This document shows, one piece after another, positions 24,803-60,919 of a DNA stretch of 64,000 nucleotides. The notes beneath the pieces were generated by a model, which did not search any database, was not told where the DNA came from, and saw only the letters and a list, made by a program, of their open reading frames with translations. Source of the stretch: Neoaquamicrobium microcysteis (GTDB lineage: Bacteria > Pseudomonadota > Alphaproteobacteria > Rhizobiales > Rhizobiaceae); NCBI RefSeq assembly GCF_008180155.1, contig NZ_VSZS01000066.1, positions 248,001 to 312,000 on the forward strand, written 5' to 3'. Within the stretch, counting starts at the first letter, position 1. Each line of letters starts with the position of its first letter. The position numbers were made by a program, and so were the translations under genes.

Positions 24803-25498
24803 CTAGCGCGGCAATTCCGATATGCCGCCATGGTTGGCCGACCACTGCACCGGCCCGTTCAGGAACTTCTCCACTTCGGCAATGGTGTCGTCGGAGAAGC
24901 GCTTCTGCTCCTTGCAGACCCGCAGGATGTCCCACCACGTCGCGAGATAGTGCAGGCGCATGCCGGCCGCCTCCAGCTTCTGAGGCGTGTCGGGGAAGAT
25001 GTCGTAGTAGAAGACGGCGAAGGTGTCGGTGACGCGCGCCCCGGTCCTGGCGATCGCCTCGGCGAACTTGATCTTGCTGCCGCCGTCGGTCGTCAGATCC
25101 TCGACCAGAAGGACGCGCGCGCCTTCTGCCAGCGTACCCTCGATCTGCGCGTCACGGCCGAAGCCCTTGGGCTTCTTGCGCACATACTGCATCGGCAGGC
25201 CCATCCGGTCGGAGAGCCATGCCGCAAAAGGGATGCCTGCAGTCTCGCCGCCAGCAACCGCGTCGAACTGCTCGAAGCCGACATTGCGGAAGATGACCGA
25301 GGCGGCGAAATCCATGATCGCGGAGCGGATGCGCGGATAGGAAATCAGCTTGCGGCAGTCGATATAGACCGGGCTCGCGAGACCGGAGGTGAAGGTATAG
25401 GGCTGGTCGGCGCGGAAATGGACGGCGTTGATCTCCAGCAGCATCTTGGCCACCGTCTCTGAAATCACCGCACGATCTGGAAATGTGTTGGAGAACAT
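24803..25498 (-). CDS. pyrE: Orotate phosphoribosyltransferase
   Basis: Converts orotate and PRPP to orotidine monophosphate in UMP synthesis; cytoplasmic, 231 residues. The PRPP-binding loop is at about 129-141 ([13 protein letters not shown]) and the orotate-side segments are [15 protein letters not shown] near residue 36 and [13 protein letters not shown] near 82. It lies 52 bp after pyrC in the TRAP-pyr operon. With imported orotate this enzyme would be the salvage branch. Confidence 0.95.
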
Positions 25499-25550
25499 GG
25501 CTTCACCCCAAAAGTTGACCGGGAACTCTCGCTATCAACTTCACTCCGCT

Positions 25551-26600
25551 CTAGCCAGCCTCGGAAGCCAGATTCCAGTGGATCGGGAACATCGGATCGA
25601 AGACGGTGACAGCGCCTTCGCCAGTGTCGATCCTGGCGGGGAATTTCTGCGGCTCTTCGTGCTTCTTCAGCGTTACGCGCACTTCGTTCGCCGGCAGGCT
25701 GTAGAAGGCCGGTCCATTAAGCGAAACGAAGGCCTCAAGCCGGTCGAGCGCGCCTTCCTCTTCGAACACATGTGCAAGGCATCCCATCGTGTTGATGGAT
25801 GAGAAAATGCCGGCGCAACCGCACGCGCATTCCTTGAGCGGATCGATGTGGGGCGCGGAATCGGTGCCGAGAAAGAAGCGGCGGTCGCCGGAAGTGGCGG
25901 CCTTGCGCAATGCCTGACGGTGAAGCTCGCGCTTGGCGACGGGCAGGCAGTAGTAGTGAGGGCGGATGCCGCCGGCCAGGATCGCGTTGCGGTTGATGAT
26001 GAGGTGATGGGTGGTGATGGTCGCGCCGAGATTTTCGGCCTGCGAGAGGGCGTAATCGACCCCGTCCTTCGTGGTCACGTGCTCCATGACCACGCGCAGG
26101 CCGGGAACGGCGCGGCGCATCGGGTCCAGGACGCGGTCTATGAAGACGGCTTCCCGGTCGAAGATGTCGATGGAGGCATCGGTGACCTCGCCGTGCACGC
26201 ACAGCGGCACGCCGGCCTTGGCCATACGCTCCAGCACCGGGTAGACGTTCTCGATGTTGCGGACGCCGCTCTGCGAGTTGGTGGTGGCGCCGGCGGGGTA
26301 GAGCTTCACTGCCGTGATCTCGCCGGCCTCGAACGCGCCGACGAGATCGGCAGCGTCGGTTTCCTCGGTGAGGTAGAGCGTCATCAGCGGCTGGAAGTCG
26401 GACCCCGCGGGCAGGGCGGCCATGATGCGCTTGCGGTAGGCGGCGGCATCCGCCCGGGTGACCACGGGCGGAACCAGATTGGGCATGATGATGGCGCGGG
26501 CGAAATGATCGGCCGTATGGCGGGCGACCGCCTGCAGCATCGCGCCGTCACGCAGGTGGACATGCCAGTCGTCGGGCTTGCGGATGGTGAGGGTGGTCAT
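25551..26600 (-). CDS. pyrC: Dihydroorotase
   Basis: Zinc amidohydrolase interconverting N-carbamoyl-L-aspartate and L-dihydroorotate, 349 residues and clearly of the E. coli-like homodimeric class. Metal sites are visible: HVH in [13 protein letters not shown] at residues 14-16, the carboxylated Lys in [11 protein letters not shown] near residue 98, His in [11 protein letters not shown], and the catalytic Asp in FLGTDSAPH near 250. It overlaps the amidohydrolase gene upstream by four bases and precedes pyrE. No aspartate transcarbamoylase gene is in this operon. Confidence 0.96.
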
Positions 26601-27880
26601 CGGTGCCTCGCGAGAAATTCGTAGACGATGTCGGTGGCGTCCGCGAAGTCGGGCAGCTCCATCGCCTCGTGCGGGTTGTGCGATCCGTTGCGGTTGCGCA
26701 CGAACACCATCGCCGAAGGGATGCCTGCCGCCGAAAACACGGCCGCGTCATGGCCACCGCCGCTTGGCATGACGAAGGGTTCCTGTCCAGTGCGCTCCAT
26801 CGCCGCCTTGAGGCCCTCGACCAGATCGGAGTCGCACATTGCGGGCTCTACGCGCATCTCCTCGTCGAGCTCGAAGCGCACCTTGCGCTCCTTCTCCACC
26901 TGCCGCATCTCGGCCTTGAGCAGGCGGCGCATATCGTCCAACGTGCGTGCGCTCTGGCTGCGGATGTCGAGGCTGAAGCAGACTTCCTCGGGAATCTTGG
27001 ACATGGCATGGATTTGCGGGTCGGTGCCGACCATGCCGCTGGTTAGCACCAGATCGTCGCCCATGTTGAGGATGGTGGACCAGCTTTCGTCCATGCGCAC
27101 CAAAAGGTCCGCCATTGCCAGCACGGCGTCGCGCCGATACGCCTTGGGCACCGCGCCGGAATGGCCCGCCTCGCCGATGCAGCGCACCTTGCGATGACGG
27201 AAATTGCCGCGAATGCCGGAGACTACGGCGGCGGGAATGTCCTTGCCGACCAGCAGGGGGCCCTGCTCGATATGCAGTTCGAGATAGGCCTCGATGGCGG
27301 ACACGTCGATGAGGGGCGTGCCGGCGCGTACCTTGTCCATCGGCAGGCCGATATCGGCCATGTGATCGTCGAGCGTGCGGCCGTCGCCCTTGTGTGACGC
27401 CTTGAGCTCCGATTCGCCGAGTGTGCCTGTGAGCGCCTTGGAGCCGATGTAGCAGGGGCCGAACCAGGCGCTTTCCTCGCCGCGCATGGCAAGCACGTGG
27501 ACGGGCCGTGCGAAGCGCTCACCGCGCCGGTGCGCGCGCACGAGGCAGACGAGGCCTGCGACAACGCCCGCCAGCCCGTCGAAATTGCCGCCATACGGCA
27601 CGCTGTCGACATGTGAACCGACGACGACGAAACGTTCGGCGCCGCGATCGGCGGGCAGGCTGAAATTGGCGTTCGCGCCCGCGTCGTACCAGACCTCGAG
27701 GCCGTGACCGCGGGCGAAATCCTCGAGGAAGCGCAGCGTCTCGGTCTCGACCTGCGAGAAAGCCGGACGGCTGACGCCCTGCGTGTCGGGGGTGAGGGCC
27801 GCGATTTCCTCGAACAGGTAGCGCGCCGTCTCGATGTCGAGCTCGCGGTCGTTGCTGTCGGCGGCGGCCAGCGCGCTCAT
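26597..27880 (-). CDS. M20 Zn-dependent N-carbamoyl amino acid / allantoate-type amidohydrolase
   Basis: Protein of 427 residues of the M20/hydantoinase (HyuC, AllC) group that removes the carbamoyl group from ureido acids. Di-metal ligands are present: HVD in [15 protein letters not shown] near residue 90, Glu in RGEESAWFG near 135, His in [11 protein letters not shown] near 200 and His in GSHNPHEAM near 400. It overlaps pyrD upstream and pyrC downstream by four bases each, which strongly suggests that its substrate is N-carbamoyl-L-aspartate, the product of PyrC run in reverse (ureidosuccinase). That function is inferred from context. Allantoate or N-carbamoyl-beta-alanine are the alternatives. 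Confidence 0.85.
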
Positions 27881-28821
27881 GGGGCCGTTTCCATGAAGAC
27901 GACGCCCTCATTCTGCTCGCCGTCGATGACGGTGCCGACGAGATCGCGGACAGAGGCGATGCCTTCGCTTTCAAGGCGGGCCTGAAGATCGGCGATGATG
28001 GACGGCATGATCGTGGGGTTGATGAAGGTGGCGGTGCCGACCTGCACGGCGCTGGCGCCCGCGATCAGGAACTCCAGCACGTCCTCGGCATTCGAGATGC
28101 CGCCGCAGCCGATGACGGGGATGTTCGCGGCCTTGGCGCATTGATACGCCATGCGCAGCGCGATCGGCTTCAGCGAAGGACCGGAAAGGCCGCCCATGAG
28201 GTTGCCGAGCTTCGGACGGCGCGTGCGCACGTCGATGGCCATGGCCAGCAGCGTGTTGGCGACCACGAGCGCATCGGCCCCGCCTTCTTCGGCGGCACGC
28301 GCGACTTCCGGCGTCTCGCCGGTGTTGGGCGTCAGCTTGGCCCACAGCGGCAGGTGCGTCGCCCTGCGCAGCTTGCACATCACGTCGTAGGTCGAGGACG
28401 GACGGATGGCGAAGGCCTTGCCGTCTTCCTCGATGTTGGGGCACGAGATGTTGACCTCAATGGCGTCGACGCCTTCGACGGTGACCTCAGAGCAGAGGGC
28501 CGCGAACTCGTCGGCGGTGTTGCCCGAAATGCTGACGACGAGGGGGGCCTTGTAGGCGCGGTAAAAAGGTATCGTCTTCTCGATGAAGGCGCCGACGCCC
28601 TTGCTGGGGATGCCGATCGAATTGAGCATCGAGCCGGAGACTTCGCAGACGCGCGGGGTCGGGTTGCCGTCGCGCCAGCCGCGCGTGATCGTCTTGGTGA
28701 CGTGCGCGCCGAGGGTGTCGAGGTCGAATACGTCGGCCAGGTCTTCCGAAAACGTGCCCGAGGCAGGCATGATCGGGTTTTTCAGACGAAGGGAGCCGAT
28801 GTCTACGGACAGGTCTACCAC
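27877..28821 (-). CDS. pyrD: Dihydroorotate dehydrogenase class 1B, catalytic subunit
   Basis: FMN enzyme catalysing dihydroorotate-orotate interconversion, 314 residues. The GTG at 28821 is chosen because translation then opens with the family N-terminus (VDLSVDIGSLRLKNPIMPAS); it overlaps the pyrK stop by seven bases. The class 1 active-site Cys lies in VNISCPNIEEDGK near residue 135, and the FMN site is IPVIGCGGISNAEDVLEFLIAGASAVQVG split around residue 250-278. Class 1B enzymes need PyrK and use NAD, unlike the quinone-linked class 2 enzyme that is usual in Proteobacteria, so this may be a second, catabolic dehydrogenase. Confidence 0.94.
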   Translation of the reverse strand: MVDLSVDIGSLRLKNPIMPASGTFSEDLADVFDLDTLGAHVTKTITRGWRDGNPTPRVCEVSGSMLNSIGIPSKGVGAFIEKTIPFYRAYKAPLVVSISGNTADEFAALCSEVTVEGVDAIEVNISCPNIEEDGKAFAIRPSSTYDVMCKLRRATHLPLWAKLTPNTGETPEVARAAEEGGADALVVANTLLAMAIDVRTRRPKLGNLMGGLSGPSLKPIALRMAYQCAKAANIPVIGCGGISNAEDVLEFLIAGASAVQVGTATFINPTIMPSIIADLQARLESEGIASVRDLVGTVIDGEQNEGVVFMETAP

Positions 28822-29672
28822 GGCATGGCCTCCTGCATGTCGAAGACCGGGCCTTCGCGGCAGACGCGCAGATTGACCTGCCTGCCGTCCTTGCGGAAAG
28901 GTCTGACACAGCAGTGGCACATGCCCAGCCCGCAGGCCATCTGCTGTTCCAGCGCGATCTCTCCGGGGATGTCGTGGCGCTCGCCCAGATTCTGAAGCAG
29001 GCGCAGCAAGCGGTTGGAACCACAGGTGTAGAAGGCGTCCACGCCCTTGTCTGCGATCAGTTCCTCGATGATGCGCTCGAGATTGTCGACGCCGGCGGTG
29101 TTTTCAGCATCGGTGACGGTGACTATGTCCGCGCCGAGATCGCGGAAGTAGTCGATGGACATCAAGACGTCCGGGCTGCGGGCGCTGCAGATCGCGGTGA
29201 GCTTTCGTCCGAGGCGCTTCGCTTCCAGCGCCAGCGGAGCGAGCGTGGCGAGGCCGACGCCGCGCGCGACGAGGACGAGGTGGTTCCAGTCGTCCTCTAT
29301 GCTGAAGCCCTGACCCAAGGGTCCAAGCACGTTGAGCCTGTCATCGGGGCCTAGATGAAACAGCGCGCGGGTGCCTTCACCCGTGACCTTGTAGAGGAAA
29401 TGCAGCTCTTCCCTCTCAGGGTAGAAACCGTAGATGCTCATCGGCCGGCGCAGATAGGGCCGCTCGCCGCCGACCACCGGGCAGAGCAGGTGAAAGAACT
29501 GGCCCGCGCGGCATTGTTGCAGCAGGGCGGCGGGTGCACGCAGCACCAGCCGCATGTACTCGCCATTCACCGGCTCGTTCGACAAAACCTCCAGATCGCG
29601 TTCGAAAACGGCGGGCGCGTTCGCCGGCGAGATCGCGGCGGCTGTTGTTGCATGAAGTGCCATGATCGTCAC
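28815..29672 (-). CDS. pyrK: Dihydroorotate dehydrogenase electron transfer subunit
   Basis: FAD and [2Fe-2S] subunit linking PyrD to NAD, 285 residues. The FAD-binding barrel is at about 25-120 (RRPMSIYGFYPEREEL), the NAD-binding domain near 125-240 (LVLVARGVGLATLAPL), and the cluster Cys residues are in QQMACGLGMCHCCVRPF followed by a fourth Cys in NLRVCREGPVFD. The start is uncertain between GTG at 29672 and ATG at 29663; neither has a strong ribosome site. It begins directly after the dctM stop codon (29675-29677), coupling transport and metabolism genes. Confidence 0.94.
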   Translation of the reverse strand: MTIMALHATTAAAISPANAPAVFERDLEVLSNEPVNGEYMRLVLRAPAALLQQCRAGQFFHLLCPVVGGERPYLRRPMSIYGFYPEREELHFLYKVTGEGTRALFHLGPDDRLNVLGPLGQGFSIEDDWNHLVLVARGVGLATLAPLALEAKRLGRKLTAICSARSPDVLMSIDYFRDLGADIVTVTDAENTAGVDNLERIIEELIADKGVDAFYTCGSNRLLRLLQNLGERHDIPGEIALEQQMACGLGMCHCCVRPFRKDGRQVNLRVCREGPVFDMQEAMPW

Positions 29673-29674
29673 CG

Positions 29675-30958
29675 CTATCCGAGCAACAGATTGGGCAGGA
29701 AGGTGGAGACGGGCGGAACGTAGGTGATGACCATCAGGGTTGCGAGGTTGGCTACGATGAAGGGGCCGATCCCCGAGATGATGACCATCACCGGTTTCGA
29801 CAGCGTCGAGGCGGCGACGAAGAGATCGAGGCCGAAGGGCGGCGTTATCATGCCGATGGTGATGTTGAGCGTGACGATGACGCCGAAGTGTACGGGGTCG
29901 ATGCCCAGCGCCATGGCGACCGGGTAGAGCGGCGGAACGAGGATCAGCAGCGCCGAGTTGGGATCGACGAACATGCCGACGACGAGAAACACGACGTTGA
30001 CGATGATGAGAAAGACGATCGGACCGGCGTTGACGGTGTCGATGAACGACAGGATGTGGCTCGGCACCTGCGCCAGCGTGACGAAGTATGAGAGCAGGCC
30101 ACCCAGCGCCAGCAGGATGAAGATGATGGCGGTGGAGAGGGCCGCACGCTCGGTTATCTCGAAGAGCTTGCGCAGGTTGAGGCTGCGGAAGATGACCGTC
30201 TCGACGAAGATCGCATAGACGACGCTGACGGCGGCCGCTTCAGTAGGCGTGAAGTAGCCTGTATAGATGCCGCCGAGGATGATGACGGGCATGCCGAGCG
30301 CCCACGCGGCGCGCGATACCGCAGTCAACCTCTCGCGCCAGCTCGTGCGCTCGCCGCCTTCGATGCCGTTCCTGCGCGCCTCGATGGCGACAAGGATGGC
30401 AAAGGAGAGCGCCAGCACCAGCCCCGGCACGATGCCGGCGATGAACAGCTTGGCGACCGAGGTTCCCGTCATCCAGCCGTAGATGATGAGGGTAATGGAG
30501 GGTGGCAGCAGCAGGGACGTTTCGGCTGCGGAGGCGATGAGCCCGAGGCTGAACTTGTCGCTGAAACCCTTCGCGCGCAGGTCGGGATAGACCATGCGGC
30601 CCATGGCGGCCACAGTGGCCGGCGCGGAGCCGGAAACGGAACCGAATGCCAGTGAGCCGCCGATGGTGGTGTAACCCGGGCCGCCGCGGAAATGGCCGAG
30701 GAACGCGCTGGCCATACCGGTGAGGCGGGCGGATATCTGGCCGCCGCCCATCAGTTCGGCGGCGAGGATGAAGAAGGGGATCGCCAGCAGAGTAGAGTGG
30801 TTGATGCCACCCACGATCTTCTGCACGGCGACGGGATCCGGCAGGGTTCCGTAGAAGAACTCCTTGACCATCAGCGCGGGGACACCCAGCACCAGCAACA
30901 TCTCGAAGCCCAGGACGAGAAGGGCTATGGCGGTGGCTACGACAACAGCGAGCAACAT
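29675..30958 (-). CDS. dctM: TRAP transporter large permease DctM
   Basis: Large membrane subunit of a TRAP (tripartite ATP-independent periplasmic) transporter, 427 residues and about twelve membrane segments. The ATG at 30958 is chosen over a longer frame since it starts at a hydrophobic helix and lies five bases after the dctQ stop. Family marks are INHSTLLAIPFFILAAELMGGG near residue 55, FGSVSGSAPATVAAMG near residue 100 and ETSLLLPPSITLIIYGW near 145. It is co-transcribed with dctQ and dctP upstream and pyrK immediately downstream. Confidence 0.94.
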   Translation of the reverse strand: MLLAVVVATAIALLVLGFEMLLVLGVPALMVKEFFYGTLPDPVAVQKIVGGINHSTLLAIPFFILAAELMGGGQISARLTGMASAFLGHFRGGPGYTTIGGSLAFGSVSGSAPATVAAMGRMVYPDLRAKGFSDKFSLGLIASAAETSLLLPPSITLIIYGWMTGTSVAKLFIAGIVPGLVLALSFAILVAIEARRNGIEGGERTSWRERLTAVSRAAWALGMPVIILGGIYTGYFTPTEAAAVSVVYAIFVETVIFRSLNLRKLFEITERAALSTAIIFILLALGGLLSYFVTLAQVPSHILSFIDTVNAGPIVFLIIVNVVFLVVGMFVDPNSALLILVPPLYPVAMALGIDPVHFGVIVTLNITIGMITPPFGLDLFVAASTLSKPVMVIISGIGPFIVANLATLMVITYVPPVSTFLPNLLLG

Positions 30959-30963
30959 GCGCC

Positions 30964-31458
30964 TTACTCCTTGTCCTGCGCGGAATAGCGGTCGATCACC
31001 CCGAAAAAGCTGAGCCCGTAGCGCAGGGCCAGCAGGATGAAGCCGATGGTGGGCGCGAGATACATCCAGAAGATCGGCATATTCAGGGTCGGGCTGGTCT
31101 GGCCCATCGAGTGTACAAAGACGGTCATCTGATAGCCGAGCCAGGCGAGGTAGAGGCTGAAGATAACGCCGACTGCGTCGATGATCCTGCGCACGGGCAG
31201 GCGGGTTGCCGCGGCAATGCCGTCGCGCCATGTGTGGACGCCGACATGGCGACCCTTCTCAAGCGCCAGCCCCAGCGCGAGGAACACAAGGAACAGGCTC
31301 ATCAAGCGGACGGCCTCCTCGATCCATGCGAGGTTGGTGGCCAGCGTGCCCCCGAACTGTCGGCCCACGACATTGAGGAAGTACAGCGCGACCATGATGA
31401 GGAAGATCGCGACGATGGCGATCCGCTCGGCGGTCCGCAAAATGGAAAGCGCCTTCAT
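30964..31458 (-). CDS. dctQ: TRAP transporter small permease DctQ
   Basis: Small membrane subunit, 164 residues with four hydrophobic segments. It shows the DctQ pattern: FLNVVGRQFGGTLATNLAWIEEAVRLMSLFLVFL in segments 1-2 (here split by one charged loop) and GRHVGVHTWRD after it. It lies between dctP and dctM and completes the tripartite system. Confidence 0.9.
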   Translation of the reverse strand: MKALSILRTAERIAIVAIFLIMVALYFLNVVGRQFGGTLATNLAWIEEAVRLMSLFLVFLALGLALEKGRHVGVHTWRDGIAAATRLPVRRIIDAVGVIFSLYLAWLGYQMTVFVHSMGQTSPTLNMPIFWMYLAPTIGFILLALRYGLSFFGVIDRYSAQDKE

Positions 31459-31515
31459 GGCCCGCTCCTCGGAAGGTGAACAGCGGCGTCCCGCATGCAG
31501 AACGCCGCAGTGGTT

Positions 31516-32538
31516 TTACTGGGCGAGGGCTTCGTATTCGCGCTCGTACACTTCGATCAGCGCCTTGCCCTCATCGCCGGTGCGGCTGAGGAACGCTTCA
31601 CGCGTGGCGGGATACATCTTCTCGCGGAAGGCTTCCTTTTCCTCGGCGGTCATCTCGCGGATGTCGATGCCGGACGCGGTGATCTCTTCCAGAGCGGCCT
31701 TCACGGCCTCGTCCTTGTGGGCGATGAGTTCGGGGATGACTTCCTCGAACGCCTCGACGATCACCGTCTGGTGCTCTTCGGGGAGGCTGTTCCAGAAGGC
31801 GGGGTTGAACAGCACGACATCTTCCATCGCGCCGTGGTCGGAGATGACCAGGTGCTTCTGGACTTCGTAGTACTTCATGCGCTGGATGGTATCGAGCGGG
31901 TTCTCCTGTGCATCGACGACGCCGGTCTGGAGCGCGGTGTAGAGCTCGCCGAAGGGCAGTGCGATGGCGGATGCGCCCAGCGCGTTGAACTGCTCGATCA
32001 GGATGTTGGAATCCATCACGCGGAACTTCTGGCCGGCGAAATCATCGACGCTTGCAAGCGGCCTGCTCGACGTGAAGTGCTTCTTGCCGTTGGGCCACAG
32101 GGTGAGGCAGACGACGCCGCGCGTCGAGAAGGAATCGCACAGCGCATCGCCGAACGCGCCGCCGCGGATGGCCTGCGCTGCTTCCGCGTCTTCCGGCAGC
32201 AGGAAGGGAATGTCGAGGATGGAAACGAGCGGGTTGAAGCCGCCGAGGAAGGCCGCGGGCGCGACGGTGGCTTCGAGCGTGCCGAGCTGCACGCCTTCCG
32301 TCATCTCACGCTGCTGGCCGAGCTGGCCCTGCGGAAAAAGCTGGAACTCGACAGCGCCGTTGGTACGCTCTGCCACCAGGGCGGCGACCTTTTCCAGATG
32401 TATGTGGCGCGACTGCTGCGCGGACTCGAGATGACCGATCTTGGCGACGAAATCCGCCGACCATGCCGCGGAGGCGGCGGTCAGGCTGATGACGGTCGAA
32501 AGAGCGAGCGATCTGAAGTTGCGGACTACCCTGTTCAT
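31516..32538 (-). CDS. dctP: TRAP transporter substrate-binding protein DctP
   Basis: Periplasmic receptor of 340 residues. The ATG at 32538 has AAGAGGTGG just upstream and gives a signal peptide ending near residue 30 (TAASAAWSA). The DctP family marks are AKIGHLESAQQSRHIHLEKVA near the mature N-terminus, FPQGQLGQQREMTEGVQLGT, the conserved Arg in FAGQKFRVMDSNILI that normally binds a ligand carboxylate, and ALQTGVVDAQENPLDTI. From its operon the ligand may be orotate, dihydroorotate or a ureido acid, all carboxylates; this is inference. Confidence 0.93.
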   Translation of the reverse strand: MNRVVRNFRSLALSTVISLTAASAAWSADFVAKIGHLESAQQSRHIHLEKVAALVAERTNGAVEFQLFPQGQLGQQREMTEGVQLGTLEATVAPAAFLGGFNPLVSILDIPFLLPEDAEAAQAIRGGAFGDALCDSFSTRGVVCLTLWPNGKKHFTSSRPLASVDDFAGQKFRVMDSNILIEQFNALGASAIALPFGELYTALQTGVVDAQENPLDTIQRMKYYEVQKHLVISDHGAMEDVVLFNPAFWNSLPEEHQTVIVEAFEEVIPELIAHKDEAVKAALEEITASGIDIREMTAEEKEAFREKMYPATREAFLSRTGDEGKALIEVYEREYEALAQ

Positions 32539-32610: not shown

Positions 32611-32635
32611 TCTCAAAAATGAGACGAAAATGAGA
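32611..32635. promoter_or_regulatory. Candidate operator between dctP and the XRE regulator
   Basis: A 5-bp inverted repeat TCTCA/TGAGA with an AAAA spacer at 32611-32624 is followed by a second copy of the half site; the 9-mer AAAATGAGA occurs at 32616-32624 and 32627-32635, eleven bases apart, about one helical turn. It lies in the divergent promoter region of the TRAP-pyr operon and the XRE gene, where such a regulator would bind. Low-GC relative to surroundings. Confidence 0.5.
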
Positions 32636-32709: not shown

Positions 32710-32742
32710 GAATGACAGCCTGAACCGGTCGTGGGAGAGAAT

Positions 32743-33648
32743 GTGAGCGATTCTGACGATGCCGCGATAAGGTTCAGCGACATAGGGGCGCGCCTGCGCG
32801 CCTATCGAATGGGCAAGGGCCTTACGCCCGACGCGCTGGCGGAAAATCTGGGCATCTCGCGCGCCGCGCTCTATCGCGCCGAAAAGGGCGAAATCCGCAA
32901 GATCGACACGCTGACCAACATCGCCAGCGAACTGGGCGTATCGCTGCCCAGCCTGATGGGCGTGGGCGTCGAGTATGTCAGCACGGCTACGGCCTTCTTC
33001 GAGCGCATGCGCCAGCTTGAGGAAGAGTGCCAGCAGATCATCGGTCTGTTCAGCCCGGTCTCCTACCTGCTGACGTCAGACGAGTACGATGCCGTGCTGG
33101 GCGAGGTGCTGAAGGAATCGATACCCGATGGGGTCGATCCCAACGGCACATCGGCGCGCGCAGTGGATGGGCTGGTCGAAATCCTGCGGGCCAGAAAGAA
33201 CGCCTTCAGGCTGCGCAGGCCGCTGATCGTGAGCCTGATATCGTCAGCCGATCTGGAACGGTTTCTGGTGCACGGGTTGATCGGCCGGCAGGATTTGCCG
33301 CCGGCAACGATCGAAAAGCGCAGGCTGGCCGCCCGCCACGAGGCCGAATACATCCTCTCGATGCTGACGGAACAGCCGATCGGCATCCAGATCGGCATCA
33401 TCCGCGAGCCGGTGCCTGCCACGAGCTTCCAGATATTCCGGCAGGCCGACCGCTCGGTGCTGGCGATCAGCCCCTTCCGGCTGGGCGAGCAGCCCAATGT
33501 GAGACTGGGCGTGGCGCTCATTACATCTGCGCCCGAAGCGATGTCGCTGCACGAGGAGATCGCCGCGCGGCTGTGGGGCGATGCGCTCAAGGGCGCCGAT
33601 GCCGCGTCCTACCTGCGGACGATGATCGACAAATATGCGATCCGCTGA
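32743..33648 (+). CDS. XRE-family transcriptional regulator
   Basis: Protein of about 301 residues with an N-terminal helix-turn-helix (LRAYRMGKGLTPDALAENLG, then ISRAALYRAEKGE) at about residues 15-60 and a C-terminal domain of some 230 residues that was not recognised and may sense a ligand. The GTG at 32743 follows GGGAGAG; an in-frame GTG at 32731 is an alternative start. Divergent from the TRAP-pyr operon, so it is the natural candidate for its regulator. Confidence 0.82.
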   Translation: MSDSDDAAIRFSDIGARLRAYRMGKGLTPDALAENLGISRAALYRAEKGEIRKIDTLTNIASELGVSLPSLMGVGVEYVSTATAFFERMRQLEEECQQIIGLFSPVSYLLTSDEYDAVLGEVLKESIPDGVDPNGTSARAVDGLVEILRARKNAFRLRRPLIVSLISSADLERFLVHGLIGRQDLPPATIEKRRLAARHEAEYILSMLTEQPIGIQIGIIREPVPATSFQIFRQADRSVLAISPFRLGEQPNVRLGVALITSAPEAMSLHEEIAARLWGDALKGADAASYLRTMIDKYAIR

Positions 33649-34642: not shown

Positions 34643-34749
34643 TCGCCTTTCTGTTAAATGAATTTGCGAACGCGAAAAATTCGGATCACGTTTCGTTACA
34701 GGGGCTGAACCGCCGATGGAGAGCGGTCCCTTCAATGGGAGACGTTGTG

Positions 34750-35910
34750 ATGAAATCATTCCTGAAATCGTGCACCGCGCTGACCGTGGCGGCCGCCTTC
34801 ACGGGGCAGGCGTTGGCACAGGAAATGAAGACCGAACTCGGCGCGGCCGAGGGCCAGGTGAACATCGTTGCATGGCCCGGCTATATCGAACGGGGCGAGA
34901 CCGATCCGAAATTCGACTGGGTGACCAAGTTCGAGGAGCAGAGCGGCTGCAAGGTCAACGTCAAGACCGCCAACACGTCCGACGAGATGGTGGCGCTGAT
35001 GAACGAAGGCGGGTTCGACCTCGTGACGGCTTCGGGTGACGCCTCGCTGCGCCTCGTCGCGGGCAAACGCGTCCAGCCGATCAATCCCGAACTGATCCCG
35101 TCGTGGAAGGATATCGACCCCCGGCTGGAGAGCGCGCCTTGGCACACGGTCGACGGCGTGCATTACGGCACGCCCTACATGTGGGGGCCCAACGTGCTGA
35201 TGTACAATACGGAGGTCTTCAAGGAGGCGCCGACTTCGTGGAACGTCGTGTTCGAGGAGATGGACCTGCCGGACGGCAAGCCCAACAAGGGCCGCATCCA
35301 GGCCTATGACGGGCCGATCCACATCGCCGACGCGGCGCTCTACCTGATGACCCACAAGCCGGACCTGGGCATCAAGACGCCGTACGAGCTCAACGAGGAT
35401 CAGTACAAGGCGGCGCTCGACCTGCTGCGCGTGCAGCGCACGCTGGCCGGCCGCTACTGGCACGACGCGTTCATCCAGATCGACGACTTCAAGAACGAGG
35501 GCGTGGTGGCGTCGGGCTCCTGGCCTTTCCAGGTAAACCTCCTGCAGGCGGACGGCGCGCCGGTGGCGTCGGTGATCCCGCAGGAAGGCGTGACGGGTTG
35601 GGCCGACACGACCATGATGCACGCCGATTCCGCCAATCCCAACTGCGCCTATATGTGGATGGAGCACACGCTGTCGTCCAACCTGCCGTCGGACCTGTCG
35701 GTGTGGTTCGGTGCCAACCCGCCGGTTCTGGCCGCCTGCACGGACGGGCGGGGCATGCAGACGGCGGAAGGCTGCACAAAGAACGGCCTCGACGATTTCG
35801 AGAAGGTCCGGTTCTGGACGACGCCCGTCACCAACTGCGCAAGCCAGGGCGAATGCGTGCCCTACTATCGATGGGTGTCGGACTATATCGGCGTGATCGG
35901 CGGGCGCTGA
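34750..35910 (+). CDS. ABC transporter substrate-binding protein, polyamine (PotD/PotF) type
   Basis: Periplasmic receptor of 386 residues. The ATG at 34750 follows GGGAGA and gives a signal peptide with cleavage near AQA-LA-QE, residue 24. The mature protein shows the PotD/PotF pattern: VNIVAWPGYIERG early, FEEQSGCKVNVKTANTSDEM, FDLVTASGDASLRL and PYMWGPNVLMYNTEVF. Cys pairs near the C-terminus may form disulfides. Followed by potA-like and two permease genes, it probably binds a polyamine or similar amine such as an aminoaldehyde precursor. Confidence 0.88.
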   Translation: MKSFLKSCTALTVAAAFTGQALAQEMKTELGAAEGQVNIVAWPGYIERGETDPKFDWVTKFEEQSGCKVNVKTANTSDEMVALMNEGGFDLVTASGDASLRLVAGKRVQPINPELIPSWKDIDPRLESAPWHTVDGVHYGTPYMWGPNVLMYNTEVFKEAPTSWNVVFEEMDLPDGKPNKGRIQAYDGPIHIADAALYLMTHKPDLGIKTPYELNEDQYKAALDLLRVQRTLAGRYWHDAFIQIDDFKNEGVVASGSWPFQVNLLQADGAPVASVIPQEGVTGWADTTMMHADSANPNCAYMWMEHTLSSNLPSDLSVWFGANPPVLAACTDGRGMQTAEGCTKNGLDDFEKVRFWTTPVTNCASQGECVPYYRWVSDYIGVIGGR

Positions 35911-35952
35911 GCGAGCGCCTGATCCGGGTCCGTATTTCTTCGCGACACGCCT

Positions 35953-35981
35953 ATCCTCTCCCCCGCAGCAGGGGAGAGGAT
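35953..35981 (+). repeat. Long intergenic hairpin, rhizobial-type repeat
   Basis: An 11-bp perfect stem (ATCCTCTCCCC at 35953-35963, its complement at 35971-35981) with a seven-base loop lies between the binding-protein gene and the ATPase gene. It is like the small palindromic repeats common between genes in Rhizobiales. By analogy with other ABC operons it could protect the upstream mRNA and raise the level of the binding protein over the membrane parts. Confidence 0.6.
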
Positions 35982-36028
35982 GCCCGCGGGCGGGCGAGGA
36001 TGAGCGCGCCCGCTTCATTCGGAAAAAC

Positions 36029-37027
36029 ATGACGCACCACATGACAGCCGTTTCTTTCCAGAAAGTCTCGCGCCATTTCGGTGCGGTTCGCGCGGTCGAC
36101 GAGGTCGATCTCGAAATCCGCCCCGGTGAGTTCTTCGCCATGCTGGGGCCGTCCGGTTCGGGCAAGACCACCTGCCTGAGGCTGATCGCGGGCTTCGACC
36201 AGCCGACGGCGGGCCACATCGAAATCTTCGGCGAGACGGCGGAGGGCGTGCCGCCCTACCGGCGCAACGTGAACACCGTGTTTCAGGACTACGCGCTGTT
36301 TCCGCATCTGAATGTGGCGGACAATGTCGCCTACGGGCTGATGGTGCGCGGCGTGCCGAGGGCCGAACGGATGCGCGAGGCCGCGTCTGCGCTGGAACTG
36401 GTGAAACTGCCGGGCTACGGCGCGCGCAAGCCGAGCCAGCTTTCGGGCGGACAGCGCCAGCGCGTCGCGCTGGCACGCGCGCTGGTCAACCGGCCGAAGG
36501 TGCTGCTGCTCGACGAGCCGCTGGGGGCGCTCGATCTGAAACTGCGCGAGCAGATGCAGGAAGAGCTGAAATCGCTGCAAAAGGCGCTGGGCGTCACCTT
36601 CGTCTTCGTCACCCACGACCAGGGCGAGGCGCTGTCGATGGCCGACCGGATCGCCGTCTTCAGCGAGGGCAGGGTGATGCAGGTCGGCACGCCCGAGGAA
36701 ATCTACAAGCGGCCGCGCTCGCGCTTCGTGGCCGATTTCGTCGGCTCCTCCAACGTGCTGCCCCCGGATTTCGTGGCGCGGCACGGCGGGGCCGTGGGGT
36801 GGGCCAGCCTGCGGCCCGAAGCGGTGCGGTTGAGCGAGCATGAGGGCATCGGCGCCACCATCGTATCGCGCAGCTTCCTCGGCGCCTCGACCCGCCTTTC
36901 GCTGATGGTGGGCGGCCAGCGGCTTCACGCGACGGTGCCTGCCGGCACATCGCTTCCCGACGACGGCAGCCCGGTGCGGCTCGCCTTCGACCGGGCCGAT
37001 CTTCACCTGCTGGACGATCAGCCATGA
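36029..37027 (+). CDS. potA: ABC transporter ATP-binding protein, PotA type
   Basis: ATPase of 332 residues. Walker A GPSGSGKTT near residue 40, Q-loop in NTVFQDYALFPHL, signature LSGGQRQRVALARAL near 140, Walker B LLLDEPLGALD near 160 and switch His in FVTHDQGEAL near 190 are all intact. A C-terminal TOBE-type domain from about residue 245 is typical of polyamine and iron importers. An in-frame ATG at 36041 is an alternative start. It overlaps the permease by four bases. Confidence 0.93.
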   Translation: MTHHMTAVSFQKVSRHFGAVRAVDEVDLEIRPGEFFAMLGPSGSGKTTCLRLIAGFDQPTAGHIEIFGETAEGVPPYRRNVNTVFQDYALFPHLNVADNVAYGLMVRGVPRAERMREAASALELVKLPGYGARKPSQLSGGQRQRVALARALVNRPKVLLLDEPLGALDLKLREQMQEELKSLQKALGVTFVFVTHDQGEALSMADRIAVFSEGRVMQVGTPEEIYKRPRSRFVADFVGSSNVLPPDFVARHGGAVGWASLRPEAVRLSEHEGIGATIVSRSFLGASTRLSLMVGGQRLHATVPAGTSLPDDGSPVRLAFDRADLHLLDDQP

Positions 37028-37977
37028 CGATGGCCGCGACCACCGTTACGATGCGGCCCTCTCGCGGCGGCGTGTTCGGCCACCTTTCGGACGTGCTGTG
37101 GCGCAACCCGCGCCTGACGCTTTTCCTGATGCTCACGCCTCCGCTTCTATGGCTAGGCATCATCTATCTGGGCTCGCTGTTCGCGCTGCTGCTCCAGAGC
37201 TTCTTTTCGATCGACGAGTATTCCGGCCTCATCAACCGCGAGTTCACGCTCAAGACCTACGCCGAACTGCTGCATCCCTCCAACCTCGACATTATCCTGC
37301 GCACGCTGGTGATGTCGGCGACGGTGACGGTGGGGGCGGCCGTCGTCGCATTTCCGATCGCCTACTACGCAGCGCGCTACGCGCGCGGCAAATGGAAGGC
37401 GTTGTTCTATCTCGGCATCATGCTGCCCCTATGGTCGAGCTATCTCGTCAAGGTCTATGCCTGGAAGCTGATCCTCGCGCGCGAGGGCATCCTCAACTGG
37501 CTGTTCGCCAAGGCGCATCTGACGTGGCTCCTTGATGCGTGGCTCGCGCTGCCGATCGTTGGCGGCAACTCGCTTTCCGTCAGCCATACAGGCACGTTTC
37601 TCGTCTTCCTCTATGTGTGGCTGCCTTACATGATCCTGCCGATACAGGCCGCGCTGGAGCGCGTACCGGCCAATCTGGTCGAGGCGTCGGCCGATCTTGG
37701 CGCATCGCCGCGCCAGACCTTTACGAAGGTGTTGCTGCCGCTGGCTCTGCCGGGCGTGATCGCCGGCTCGATCTTCACCTTCTCGCTCACAATGGGCGAT
37801 TACATCATCCCGCAGATCGTCGGCACGTCCCGCCGCTTCATCGGGCAAGCGGTCTACGCGCATCAGGGAACGGCCGGCAACATCCCGCTGGCGGCCGCCT
37901 TCACCGTGGTGCCCATCGTCGTCATGGGCTTCTACCTGTGGTTCGCCAAGCGCAGGGGAGCGTTCGATGCGGTCTGA
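37024..37977 (+). CDS. potB: ABC transporter permease, PotB type
   Basis: Membrane subunit of 317 residues with six to seven hydrophobic segments. The EAA motif that contacts the ATPase is present as [25 protein letters not shown] near residue 218. It overlaps potA by four and the second permease by eleven bases. The first cytoplasmic 30 residues are longer than usual. Forms the pore with the PotC-type protein. Confidence 0.9.
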
Positions 37978-38782
37978 TCGCAACCAGAGCGCCCCGGTGG
38001 GGCTGAAGATCGCAGCAGCGGCGGGGCTCCTGTTCCTGCACCTGCCGATCCTGCTGATTTTCGTCTACGCGTTCACCACGGAGGAGCGCACCTATCAGTG
38101 GCCGCCGCCCGGCTTTACACTCAAATGGTTCGCGGTGACGTGGAACCGGCCCGACGTGTGGGAAGCGCTTATCCTGTCAGTCAAGGTCGCCTCGATCTCG
38201 ACCGTGATCGCGCTGGTGCTGGGAACGCTTTGCGCGGCGGCGGTCTCGGGCTCGCGCTTCTTCGGCCGCGAGGCGATATCGCTGCTGGTGATACTGCCCA
38301 TCGCGCTGCCCGGCATCATCACCGGCATCGCGCTGCGCTCCGCCTTCAGCCTTGCCGAAATCCCGTTCTCGTTCTGGACGATCATATTGGGGCACGCGAC
38401 GTTCTGCGTGGTGATCGTCTACAACAACGCCATCGCTCGCTTCAGGCGCACGTCCGGTTCGTTGATGGAGGCGTCGATGGACCTTGGCGCCGACGGGTTC
38501 CAGACCTTCCGCTATGTGATACTGCCCAATATCGGCACGGCTCTTCTGGCCGGGGGGATGCTCGCCTTCGCGCTGTCGTTCGACGAGGTCATCGTCACGA
38601 CGTTTACCGCGGGCCAGCAGCAGACGCTGCCGATCTGGATGCTGGAGGAACTCGTTCGCCCGCGCCAACGGCCGGTCACCAACGTCGTCGCGATGGTGGT
38701 GGTGATCGTGACCTTCCTGCCCATCCTCGTGGCCTACTACCTCACCCGTGACGGCGATCAGGTCGCCGGTGGCGGCAAATGA
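37967..38782 (+). CDS. potC: ABC transporter permease, PotC type
   Basis: Second membrane subunit, 271 residues with six hydrophobic segments. The EAA loop reads [23 protein letters not shown] near residue 165, and the downstream [16 protein letters not shown] stretch is typical of PotC. It ends 17 bp before the aldehyde dehydrogenase start, with the AGGAGG of the next gene close to its stop. Confidence 0.9.
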
Positions 38783-38799
38783 ATCTTCAGGAGGAAACC

Positions 38800-40227
38800 A
38801 TGCATACCGACATGCTGATCGGCTCGAAATTCGACAGGGGAACGGAAGCCGAAGAGGCGATCCTCAATCCGAGGACGGGTAAAAAAATCCTCGACCTGCC
38901 CGAGGCCTCCCATGGCCAGATCGAGGCGGCCGTGAATGCGGCGAGCACCGCCTTCGGTTCGTGGTCGAGAACGACGCCCGGCGAGCGTTCCGGCTACCTG
39001 CTGAAGATCGCCGAGCGCATCGAGGCCGAAGCGGAAGAATTCGCCCGGCTGGAGGCTCTGAACTGCGGCAAGCCGATCAACGCCGTGTTGAACGACGAAA
39101 TCCCCGCCATCGTCGATTGCTACCGATTCTTCGCCGGTGCGGTGCGCACCATGCCGGGCGCCATCGCCGGCGAATATCTGGCGGGCCACACGTCGATGAT
39201 CCGCCGCGACCCCATCGGCGTGGTGGCCTCGATCGCGCCCTGGAACTATCCGCTGATGATGATGGCGTGGAAGCTCGCGCCGGCCATCGCCGGCGGCAAT
39301 ACGGTCGTGTTCAAGCCCTCCGAACAGACGCCGTTGACCGCGCTGAAGCTGGCGCGCATTCTTGCCGACGTGCTGCCTGAAGGTGTGGTGAACGTCGTGC
39401 TCGGTCGTGGCGAGACGGTGGGCAATGCGCTCATCAACCATCCCGCCGTCAACATGATCTCGATCACAGGCGACGTGGCGACCGGCAAGAAGGTGTTGCA
39501 GGCGGCCGCCAAGTCGGTGAAGCGCACGCATCTCGAACTTGGCGGCAAGGCTCCCGTTGTGGTTTTCGACGACGCCGACCTGGACGCCGTGGTCAACGGG
39601 CTTCGCGCTTTCGGCTACTACAACGCAGGACAGGATTGCACTGCTGCGTGCCGCATCTATGCCGGGCCCAAAATCTACGAGAAGCTGGTGGCCGACCTGA
39701 CCTCGGCCGTCTCGACCATCAAATATGCGCAGGCCGACGACACCGAGAACGAGATCGGCCCGCTGATCTCGCGCCGTCAGCAGGAACGTGTCGCAAGTTT
39801 CGTGGAACGCGCGGCCGAGCAGAAGCACATCGAGATTACCACCGGCGGCAAGCCGGGGGAGGGCGGCGGTTTCTACTATCAGCCAACGGTCGTGGCCGGG
39901 GCCTTGCAGGAAGACGAGATCGTACGGCGCGAAGTGTTCGGCCCGGTCGTCTCCGTCACGCGATTCTCCGATGTCGACGAAGCCGTCAGCTGGGCCAACG
40001 ACAGCGACTACGGCCTCGCCTCTTCAGTGTGGACCAAAGACGTCGGCCGGGCGATGGCGACGGCAGCGCGGCTTCAATATGGCTGCACGTGGATCAATAC
40101 CCATTTCATGCTGGTCAACGAGATGCCGCATGGCGGGCTCAAGCAGTCGGGCTATGGCAAGGACATGTCGCTCTACGCGCTGGAGGATTACACGGCCGTA
40201 CGCCATGTGATGATCGCGCACGGATAG
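38800..40227 (+). CDS. Aminoaldehyde dehydrogenase (PatD/betaine aldehyde dehydrogenase-like)
   Basis: NAD-dependent aldehyde dehydrogenase of 475 residues, close in length to 4-aminobutyraldehyde dehydrogenase PatD. The ATG at 38800 has AGGAGG at 38788-38793. The catalytic Cys is in [11 protein letters not shown] near residue 285, the general base Glu in [13 protein letters not shown] near 250 and the family asparagine in APWNYPL near 150. In the ABC transporter operon it would oxidise an aminoaldehyde formed from imported polyamine to the corresponding amino acid. Betaine aldehyde is an alternative substrate given the GMC gene next door. Confidence 0.85.
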
Positions 40228-57785: not shown

Positions 57786-57831
57786 AACTGTCTAGAATGC
57801 CGCGTGGCCCGTGCGGCTCGTGGAGGAGCGA

Positions 57832-58749
57832 ATGCCCCGCAAAATTCCCGTACCGGGAGATATCACGGCGATCGGCGAAGTCCGCACGCCGCCTTTCGCC
57901 CGCGTGCCGGACCCGGTGCGCCTTTTCGAACGGCGGTCAAATCGCTTTCGCCAGCTTTCCGGCCCTGACGGCATCGGACCCTATCTCGGCTTTCTCGCCG
58001 GGATCGCAGAGGCGCAGAAGCAGCTTGCCGAGACGTTGCCGGCTCCTGCGACGCTTGACGAAGCCAGGATGGAACGAGCCGCCGAGCACGCGATGCCGCC
58101 GCTCGATCGCAATGCCTTCCGGCCAGACGCCGCTTTCGGCTCGCTGAGCGATGAGCTTTTCGGCGCGCTGCAAAAGGTCGGCAAACCGGCCGCCGCGCAG
58201 GCTGCACTCTCGGCGGTGAACACTGCTTCGGAAGACCGCATCGCCGCCATGGTCGCCGACCTGATGGCGGATTCCGTGCCTGCCGAGGCGATGGCGGAAT
58301 ATGCGTACGTCGCCGCCGCGCTGCAGCTTCACTTCGTTCGCGCGGCCTCGACGCTGGCGGAACGGCAACTCAAGCCGGTGGGCGACGGAGCCTGCCCGGC
58401 ATGCGGCGGGCCGCCGGTCAGTTCGCTCATTGTCGGCTGGCCGCAGGCTGGCGGGTCCAGGTTCTGCTCCTGCGCCCTATGCGGCACGCTATGGCATCAT
58501 GTGCGCATCAAATGCGCCATCTGCTCTTCCACCAAGGGTATCCGCTACAAGGAGATCGAGGACGGGCCGGGCACGATCAAGGCCGAAACATGCGACGAGT
58601 GCGGGTGCTACGTCAAAATCATGAACCAGCAAAAGGATGTTTCGCTGGACCCGTTCGCCGACGATGTCGGCAGTCTCGGCATCGACCTTTTGATGCGCGA
58701 CACCAAATACCGTCGCGGAGCGTTCAACCCGTTCCTCTTGGGATATTGA
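57832..58749 (+). CDS. fdhE: Formate dehydrogenase accessory protein FdhE
   Basis: Maturation factor for formate dehydrogenase, 305 residues. The ATG at 57832 follows GGAGGAG at 57822-57828; an upstream GTG at 57811 is an alternative. Its rubredoxin-like metal sites are visible in the C-terminal half: CPACGG, CSCALCG, CAIC and CDECGC, the CxxC pairs that bind iron in the family. It lies between the fdn structural genes and the selenium genes, linking the two processes. Confidence 0.93.
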   Translation: MPRKIPVPGDITAIGEVRTPPFARVPDPVRLFERRSNRFRQLSGPDGIGPYLGFLAGIAEAQKQLAETLPAPATLDEARMERAAEHAMPPLDRNAFRPDAAFGSLSDELFGALQKVGKPAAAQAALSAVNTASEDRIAAMVADLMADSVPAEAMAEYAYVAAALQLHFVRAASTLAERQLKPVGDGACPACGGPPVSSLIVGWPQAGGSRFCSCALCGTLWHHVRIKCAICSSTKGIRYKEIEDGPGTIKAETCDECGCYVKIMNQQKDVSLDPFADDVGSLGIDLLMRDTKYRRGAFNPFLLGY

Positions 58750-58761
58750 GGCCGCGACCCC

Positions 58762-60148
<1,387 letters not shown>

Positions 60149-60162
<14 letters not shown>

Positions 60163-60919
60163 TCGGCTCAAACGTGGCGCCGCGCCGGGCGATCCGATGG
60201 CGGCGGCGTTGGCCGCTGCGCGTGCCGGCGATTATGCGACCGCGCTGTCGATATGGGAGCCGATGGCGCGGGCCGGCAATGCCCGGGCACAAAACAACAT
60301 AGCGGCATGTTTTTCGGGCGGGCACGGCGTGAACGAAAATGCCGAACTGGCGGCCCAGTGGCTTGCGCTATCGGCGGCATCCGGCGATCCGGTCGGGCAG
60401 CGCAATCTGGCCACCCTGCATTTTCGTGGCGAGGGTGTCGCCCAGGACGATGACGAGGCCATACGGCTCTACAGGCTGGCTGCCGGCCAGGGCGATGCTA
60501 CCGCGCAGGACATGCTTTCCTGGATGCTGGCGGAGCAGGGGGCATACGAGGAGGCCCGCGCCTTTGCCGAGAAAGCTGCTGCGCAGGGAATAGCTGCGTC
60601 GATGACGCGGCTGGGCAATCTCTACTACAATGCCCTCGGTGTGGGCCGGGATGCCGTGCTGGCGGTGCAATGGTGGGAGAAGGCGGCCCCGCTCGGCGAT
60701 GCCGACGCTCAGGCCATGCTGGGCGCAGCCTACCTGACGAGCGGTGGTGTCGCCGCCGATCCGCTGACGGCGATGACGTGGCTGCTGCGGGCGCGCAAGG
60801 GCGGCTCCGTTCTTGCGCACAAGTTCATAGCGGCGGCCACCGCGCAGCTTTCACCGGAGCAGCGCGAAGAGGCGGAAAGGCAAGCTGCCCAGCCGCTGCA
60901 GCACGCCGGTCTGCCATGA
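60149..60919 (+). CDS. Sel1-repeat (TPR-like) protein
   Basis: Protein of 256 residues made of about five 36-residue Sel1-like repeats (GNARAQNNIAACFSGGHGV, GDPVGQRNLATLHFRGEGV, and so on), an alpha-solenoid that binds proteins. The name Sel1 comes from a nematode gene and does not mean a selenium protein. It is nested between selA (14-bp overlap) and selB (four-base overlap), so it is made with the selenocysteine factors; whether it acts in that process is unknown. No signal peptide is visible. Confidence 0.85.

Follow-up and report, generated by a model that had tools for sequence, protein, structure and literature searches.

A 64,000-nucleotide stretch of the Neoaquamicrobium microcysteis genome (C45:248001-312000; hereafter the window) carries on its minus strand an operon that most probably serves the uptake of orotate and its reductive breakdown to aspartate, CO2, and ammonia. 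Its eight genes, dctP-dctQ-dctM-pyrK-pyrD-M20-pyrC-pyrE, are all intact and collinear in one run from 32538 to 24803 (Table 1), and were named by Pfam and NCBIfam profile searches of the window proteins. The open reading frames (ORFs) and these profiles bear out the run as described in a first-pass annotation of the same DNA, including the 4-base overlaps of pyrD with the M20 gene and of the M20 gene with pyrC, and the lack of pyrB, which sits on another contig. The reported contact of dctM and pyrK also holds, but the spacing is 2 bases instead of three if pyrK starts at GTG 29672. Beyond that gene list, we found a ninth gene (orfS), a divergent gene for an Xre-type regulator, and a palindrome. 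A search for the same operon elsewhere, as the annotation had proposed, revealed that most flanks of carriers in the host's family preserve the order xre / dctPQM-pyrK-pyrD-M20-(pyrC)-(pyrE)-orfS, and that the core is also present in distant genomes. Since the gene order recurs in related and distant genomes, the arrangement is not due to chance.

In the proposed pathway, the tripartite ATP-independent periplasmic (TRAP) transporter would import orotate as a nitrogen and carbon source, and PyrKD would reduce it to dihydroorotate with NADH. PyrC would open the ring to N-carbamoyl-L-aspartate, the reverse of the biosynthetic reaction, and the M20 hydrolase would cleave this product into aspartate, CO2, and ammonia. 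Part of the orotate would be passed by PyrE into uridine monophosphate (UMP). The Xre-type regulator would act at the palindrome TCTCAnnnnTGAGA, and OrfS on or with the M20 hydrolase. Support for the earlier proposal, a system for taking up and breaking down orotate, comes from an orotate-bound homologue of DctP, a class 2 PyrD that makes PyrKD redundant, and a conserved core around which transporters and dihydroorotase are swapped.

DctP matched the Protein Data Bank (PDB) entry 4NN3, the TRAP receptor of Maridesulfovibrio salexigens, with 433 bits, the next best entry reaching 176. The two proteins are identical at 195 of 327 aligned residues (60%). According to the accessible text of PMC11668362, orotic acid was the ligand bound in 4NN3, and its residue at the position of Arg152 in the other receptors compared is a Lys. 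Orotic acid also appears among the new TRAP ligands of a 2015 screen in the accessible part of a review (PMC5812351). The window DctP combines close homology to 4NN3 with a Lys (Lys153) at the Arg position; the alignment puts a one-residue gap between the Lys position and Arg173. Lys153 is present in all 19 operon DctPs aligned (the window and 18 of the 20 relatives with a DctP, L052 and L073 being omitted), and the Arg, aromatic, and Asn positions of the pocket are kept in the same set. Outside the host's family, receptors of this type are scarce, with matches at E <= 1e-85 in 2 of 398 Pseudomonadota genomes (the host itself and G482). The 60% identity and the shared Lys thus support the earlier suggestion that DctP is a candidate orotate receptor. 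PyrK or DctP alone is no proof of the pathway.

PyrD scores above the cut-off of NF005574, stands next to a PyrK-domain protein, and has its best PDB matches in the class 1B entries 5ue9 and 1ep1, the latter named dihydroorotate dehydrogenase B, as expected of an NAD-linked class 1B dihydroorotate dehydrogenase. The NCBIfam PyrK models give the window PyrK at most 127 bits, under their cut-offs. The Cys of an SCPN motif and an NSIGIPSKG loop are invariant in 21 aligned rows of PyrD (L054, L063, and L073 of 23 omitted); we take the Cys to be the active-site residue and the NSxG loop to be a class 1B active-site feature. In a tree built without L063 and L073, a 100/100 branch separates the operon PyrDs and a Paroceanicella PyrD from 29 background PyrDs, with a warning from the program that long branches meet between both groups. 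The background was drawn from 398 Pseudomonadota genomes, 89 of which have a match, and comprises 29 of the 88 genomes other than the host. None of the 29 class 1 PyrDs had pyrK, M20, pyrC, pyrE, or orfS within flanks of about 1.5 kb (tblastn, E 1e-6), a search that diverged partners could escape. In-frame TGA flags in four PyrK matches were rejected as selenocysteine codons, their coordinates showing ordinary stop codons inside the alignment.

The M20 protein belongs to the hydantoinase/carbamoylase family (TIGR01879), and its best PDB match is 3n5f, an N-carbamoyl-L-amino acid hydrolase. Against the model of ErtE, an N-carbamoyl-L-glutamate amidohydrolase (NF058540), it scored 263 bits, below the cut-off of 520. 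A motif near the C-terminus, R-N-x-x-G-S-H-N-P, is common to all 23 aligned operon M20 proteins, and its region is one residue shorter in them than in the PDB relatives shown. From family and gene context, we infer that this protein is the ureidosuccinase, with predicted activity and substrate.

OrfS, encoded downstream, matched nothing in Pfam or NCBIfam. Its AlphaFold 2 model consists of five helices (predicted local distance difference test score 89.8), and a fold search against PDB returned nothing at E <= 0.001. The 34 pattern matches obtained in viral contigs included no relative. Among 24 loci (the window plus the 23 flanks selected through PyrK), orfS is found in 21, and the remaining three (L053, L054, and L063) end before its place; the OrfS model was built from 16 of those 21 loci, and matches are weak in L069, L071, and L072 (E 1e-6 to 2e-7). 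Scanning named genomes with OrfS yielded 36 loci, several being records already found, and M20 is present in 33 of them. The other three (L106, L107, and L117) all have pyrE-orfS, two of them being at the ends of contigs and L117 sharing its contig with the operon L111. OrfS was also detected in 5 of 6 plasmid records tested (L141-L146). In three relatives (L068, L070, and the Agrobacterium plasmid L143, E 2e-25), OrfS forms the C-terminal part of the M20 protein, and because of these fusions we consider that it probably works on or with the hydrolase.

The rest of the host genome (4.84 Mb, 99.99% complete) bears on whether the operon is needed for pyrimidine synthesis. Pfam DHO_dh detects three proteins: the window PyrD, one on C41, and a class 2 PyrD on C47, which matches TIGR01036 with 380 bits. 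The window dehydrogenase is thus not the only one of the genome, and PyrKD is therefore redundant for synthesis. A pyrB gene lies on C37, followed by a multi-type PyrC (L020 589-1875, -). When this PyrC was aligned to the Aquifex enzyme, Arg replaced the first His of HxH, and a His further along and the Asp that precedes HAP were missing. We take these positions to be metal ligands, which the protein seems to have lost, and presume that it resembles the non-catalytic PyrC' of Pseudomonas. The window PyrC, which scores above the TIGR00856 cut-off and aligns to 4lfy, is the only match to that model in the genome and thus probably its only working dihydroorotase. The window PyrE is likewise the only PyrE over the cut-off, the next match reaching 21.5 bits. 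Because no other working copy of either gene was found, operon pyrC and pyrE probably serve UMP synthesis as well, and the dedicated part is TRAP-PyrKD-M20-OrfS, which corrects the earlier annotation. That annotation had treated a class 2 pyrD and a separate pyrBC as signs of breakdown, and a genome with no other pyrD or dihydroorotase as a sign of synthesis. The class 2 PyrD is present; the pyrB-pyrC pair exists, but its PyrC appears depleted of metal ligands, so that a second working dihydroorotase is probably lacking.

If the operon were mainly biosynthetic, pyrKD, pyrC, and pyrE would make UMP beside an unrelated transporter and hydrolase. The status of pyrC and pyrE as the only likely working copies agrees with this explanation, which we nevertheless regard as very unlikely: a class 2 PyrD is found in the host and in all 24 carriers of PyrK, pyrKD keeps an uptake system and M20 across the loci, where pyrC and pyrE are present only in some, and a carbamoylaspartate hydrolase would be wasteful in biosynthesis. 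The biosynthetic interpretation, named at first pass as the competitor, therefore stands for pyrC and pyrE, probably shared with UMP synthesis, but not for PyrKD.

A second reductive uracil pathway was also considered, as the M20 family includes beta-ureidopropionases and some neighbouring operons contain a nucleoside phosphorylase. Such a pathway is extremely improbable. The DHO_dh protein on C41 reads as PreA, with a PreT-like gene upstream (read from the sequence without family search). Near it, an amidohydrolase-family gene adjoins an M20 gene whose product is 29% identical to the window M20 and is its sole other relative in the genome at E <= 1e-15. On this reading, the C41 genes form the uracil route. 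In addition, the window PyrD has none of what we take to be the PreA-type loop, and uracil is not a TRAP-type acid.

Within the family, the operon is patchily distributed. PyrK was found at E <= 1e-20 in 24 of 297 genomes, the host included, and the flanks of the 23 other carriers were compared with the window. Class 2 PyrD was over the cut-off in all 24 carriers and in all 10 non-carriers tested. Two full PyrE proteins are present in eight carriers (G001, G007, G033, G040, G109, G136, G172, and G183); the operon contigs of G007 and G183 stop short of pyrE, which leaves the copy of the operon indistinguishable there. Two full PyrC proteins are encoded only in G109, whose second pyrC and pyrE are neighbours on C11, and the operon copies are therefore additional there. 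Six carriers (G000, G098, G055, G043, G064, and G251) have only an operon-linked PyrE over the cut-off, and in the remaining ones PyrE lies elsewhere, is in fragments, or falls under the cut-off.

Selection by PyrK or OrfS gave 52 distinct loci, of which 49 have pyrK, 49 pyrD, and 49 M20. The counts also bear on a salvage-only role, in which TRAP would bring orotate or dihydroorotate for conversion by PyrE to UMP and PyrKD would run in its usual direction. PyrE is encoded in 29 of 52 loci, and the accessible text of PMC13328217 describes DctA-mediated salvage of orotate in E. coli and Salmonella. We find this role quite improbable, since the M20 hydrolase has no part in salvage, and since a dctP homologue is found in 41 loci, of which 9 have pyrC without pyrE and 7 have neither (contig ends included).

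Alpha-, beta-, and gammaproteobacteria all have representatives with the core pyrK-pyrD-M20, in most cases accompanied by orfS, and uptake there is by TRAP, an aromatic-acid transporter of the major facilitator superfamily (MFS), or an ATP-binding cassette (ABC) transporter with a nucleoside phosphorylase. A plasmid search with PyrK gave 75 records; nine of the 20 listed and one further Klebsiella plasmid were examined. The Klebsiella plasmid L141 has MFS, pyrK, pyrD, M20, pyrC, a helix-turn-helix (HTH) gene, and OrfS beside lacYZ, and 53 plasmid records contain this copy at >=99% identity. No near match to it was found in a collection of 5,426 E. coli genomes. The order on a P. putida plasmid is HTH, MFS, pyrK, pyrD, M20, a multi-type dihydroorotase, OrfS, and a malic enzyme-like gene, the dihydroorotase in the pyrC slot belonging to another family (NF006688, 701 bits). 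A Variovorax plasmid has MFS, pyrKD, M20, pyrC, HTH, a phosphoribosyltransferase gene, and OrfS. In Roseomonas haemaphysalidis, MFS, pyrKD, M20, and pyrE are accompanied by a LysR regulator, with no OrfS match, and in Roseomonas marmotae LysR, pyrKD, M20, and pyrE are followed by a small gene. A Paracoccus plasmid carries the TRAP form of the module, and on an Agrobacterium plasmid the ABC and nucleoside phosphorylase genes diverge from pyrKD and an M20-OrfS fusion. One PyrK-matching plasmid record, from Cupriavidus, is without annotation. The Klebsiella MFS protein is of the aromatic acid/H+ symport type (TIGR00895, 345 bits, below the cut-off of 419), and its counterparts on the Pseudomonas, Variovorax, and Roseomonas plasmids share 64-78% identity with it. 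The catalytic core is thus constant, whereas the uptake genes, and even the dihydroorotase, can be replaced.

Orotate is abundant in cow's milk, and on the Klebsiella plasmids L141 and L156, both chosen for their milk source, the MFS form of the module adjoins lac genes. We do not claim an enrichment of these plasmids in milk: 9 of the 53 records name milk or bovine mastitis, compared with 4 among the 60 listed of 199 matches for a neighbouring copper-receptor gene, the difference being small and the sets overlapping (one of those 4 is an operon plasmid).

Several observations weigh against orotate breakdown as the function. The M20 protein reaches no equivalog cut-off, pyrC is present in only 26 and pyrE in only 29 of the 52 loci (some cut by contig ends), and pyrC and pyrE appear to be the sole working copies in the host, so that the operon is not purely catabolic. 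A DctP that is 51% identical to that of the window and 47% to 4NN3 is encoded next to genes for a maleate isomerase and a ring dioxygenase (L152). On a Paroceanicella plasmid, a 69% identical DctP stands apart from pyrKD and M20 genes, and a PyrKD homologue lies in a dioxygenase/molybdo-hydroxylase cluster without M20. Related proteins may therefore serve other ring acids. This occurrence of DctP and PyrKD relatives in other ring-cleavage clusters favours the breakdown of another heterocyclic acid, whose ring the same kinds of enzyme would reduce, open, and decarbamoylate. To this explanation we give little credence, given the orotic acid ligand of 4NN3 as described in the accessible text on that structure, the class 1B matches of PyrD with its presumed active-site Cys and NSxG loop, and the dihydroorotases and PyrE that accompany PyrKD.

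In L152, a Paracoccus seriniphilus plasmid, the DctP gene also has an amidohydrolase gene beside it and perhaps encodes a pyridine-acid TRAP receptor. In L153, the Paroceanicella plasmid, the PyrKD homologues lie amid genes for a ring-dioxygenase, a molybdenum hydroxylase, a cupin, and an asparaginase, and perhaps act as a reductase for another heterocyclic acid.

Alignment of the intergenic regions revealed the palindrome TCTCAnnnnTGAGA. It occurs once in the window, compared with 0.02 expected, and twice in the 4.84 Mb genome, the second site being at C46:144427. In the 52 distinct loci, 43 sites were found in 37 loci, and each of 29 permuted dyads gave 0-2; about half of these loci had been used to derive the palindrome, so that its count in them is no independent evidence. 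The derivation drew neither on the sites before ABC operons nor on those of the Agrobacterium plasmid. All 57 sites, duplicates included, lie <=350 bases upstream of a dctP, pyrK, xre, or ABC ATPase gene. A homologue of the Xre-type regulator is encoded in 46 of the 52 loci. Because the palindrome is conserved, we infer that this regulator controls transcription at TCTCAnnnnTGAGA, its predicted operator. No exact match to the palindrome was present in the Klebsiella, Pseudomonas, Variovorax, Roseomonas, and Paracoccus loci, four of which encode Xre-type regulators 41-48% identical to that of the window. A promoter-like TTGACA-17-TACCGT seen by eye after the palindrome was not reported by a promoter scan and is not claimed.

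The palindrome also precedes an operon for an ABC transporter and a nucleoside phosphorylase in six loci (L066, L067, L069, L072, L137, and L143). Four of the six are without a dctP homologue, and two of those four have a phosphopentomutase-like gene. In L066, phosphopentomutase follows the ABC-phosphorylase genes, and L067 has a gene that begins with the same sequence. The phosphorylase resembles uridine phosphorylase (150 bits, cut-off 280), and orotidine as its substrate is a guess. A mobile orotate/orotidine regulon with the operon as one of its arms is conceivable, though doubtful: the ABC arm would import orotidine and split it into orotate and ribose-1-phosphate, and OrfS would be a new subunit gating the M20 ureidosuccinase and sparing the cell's own carbamoylaspartate for pyrimidine synthesis.

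Table 1. Genes and operator candidate of the putative orotate operon, with positions in the window.
Feature	Position	Strand	Predicted product or role	Profile match or remark
dctP	31516..32538	-	TRAP solute receptor, predicted orotate-binding	PF03480, 287 bits
dctQ	30964..31458	-	TRAP small permease	PF04290, 85 bits
dctM	29675..30958	-	TRAP large permease	PF06808, 358 bits; start ATG 30958
pyrK	28815..29672	-	Predicted NAD-linked electron transfer subunit of class 1B dihydroorotate dehydrogenase	PF10418 (iron-sulfur domain), 46 bits
pyrD	27877..28821	-	Class 1B catalytic subunit, predicted orotate reductase direction	NF005574, 356 bits (cut-off 269)
M20 amidohydrolase	26597..27880	-	Predicted ureidosuccinase (N-carbamoyl-L-aspartate hydrolase)	TIGR01879, 271 bits (cut-off 204)
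pyrC	25551..26600	-	Dimer-type dihydroorotase	TIGR00856, 416 bits (cut-off 293); aligned to 4lfy
pyrE	24803..25498	-	Orotate phosphoribosyltransferase	NF001729, 397 bits (cut-off 245)
orfS	24784-24461	-	Small all-helical protein, conserved with the operon	Ninth gene, 18 bases after pyrE
Xre-type regulator gene	32731..33648	+	Regulator, divergent from dctP	PF13560, 38 bits
Palindrome TCTCAAAAATGAGA	32611..32624		Predicted operator of the Xre-type regulator	Before dctP

Elsewhere in the window, genes for an ABC transporter read as the polyamine type and an aldehyde dehydrogenase-like gene (34735-40227, +; read without family search) come after the Xre-type regulator gene and a LysR-type gene. 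A tRNA-Sec gene lies at 62851-62946, inside the 3' end of an ORF at 60670-62967 (+). The ORFs before it are presumably FdhE, SelA, and SelB, giving a selenocysteine set at 57811-62946 (+).

The biochemistry of orotate breakdown was established in the 1950s, and in Clostridium (Zymobacterium) oroticum it proceeds through dihydroorotate dehydrogenase, dihydroorotase, and ureidosuccinase. We know of no gene that has been assigned to ureidosuccinase. In the open-licence literature, judged by title and listing, which is not proof of absence, nothing was found under 'ureidosuccinase', nor any bacterial gene cluster for orotate breakdown; the accessible parts of PMC4016543 and PMC10041152 contain nothing on orotate breakdown. 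As far as this literature tells, the operon appears to be an undescribed genetic system for a known pathway. It offers a testable ureidosuccinase gene, a transporter with an orotate-bound structural homologue, and a regulator with a probable site, and it ties a small protein family, OrfS, to a hydrolase. Moreover, the module crosses classes of Proteobacteria on plasmids, including the 53 near-identical Klebsiella copies.

Among known systems, the operon resembles orotate degradation in C. oroticum in its class 1B dehydrogenase, dihydroorotase, and predicted ureido-acid hydrolase; the C. oroticum dehydrogenase is tabulated as class 1B in the accessible part of PMC10395836. It differs from that system in belonging to Proteobacteria and in forming a single operon with a dedicated transporter, a regulator, a predicted operator, and OrfS. 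The receptor is akin to 4NN3, the orotic acid-bound protein, in overall identity and in the Lys, Arg, Phe, and Asn positions of the pocket, as far as the accessible description of 4NN3 goes. The DctA-dependent salvage of E. coli and Salmonella shares the uptake of external orotate and the PyrE step, but uses a dicarboxylate carrier, and no breakdown step is described for it in the accessible text. Reductive uracil catabolism (PreTA, dihydropyrimidinase, and beta-ureidopropionase) involves the same three reaction types and the M20 and cyclic amidohydrolase families, but acts on a different substrate and is apparently encoded by separate genes in the same genome.

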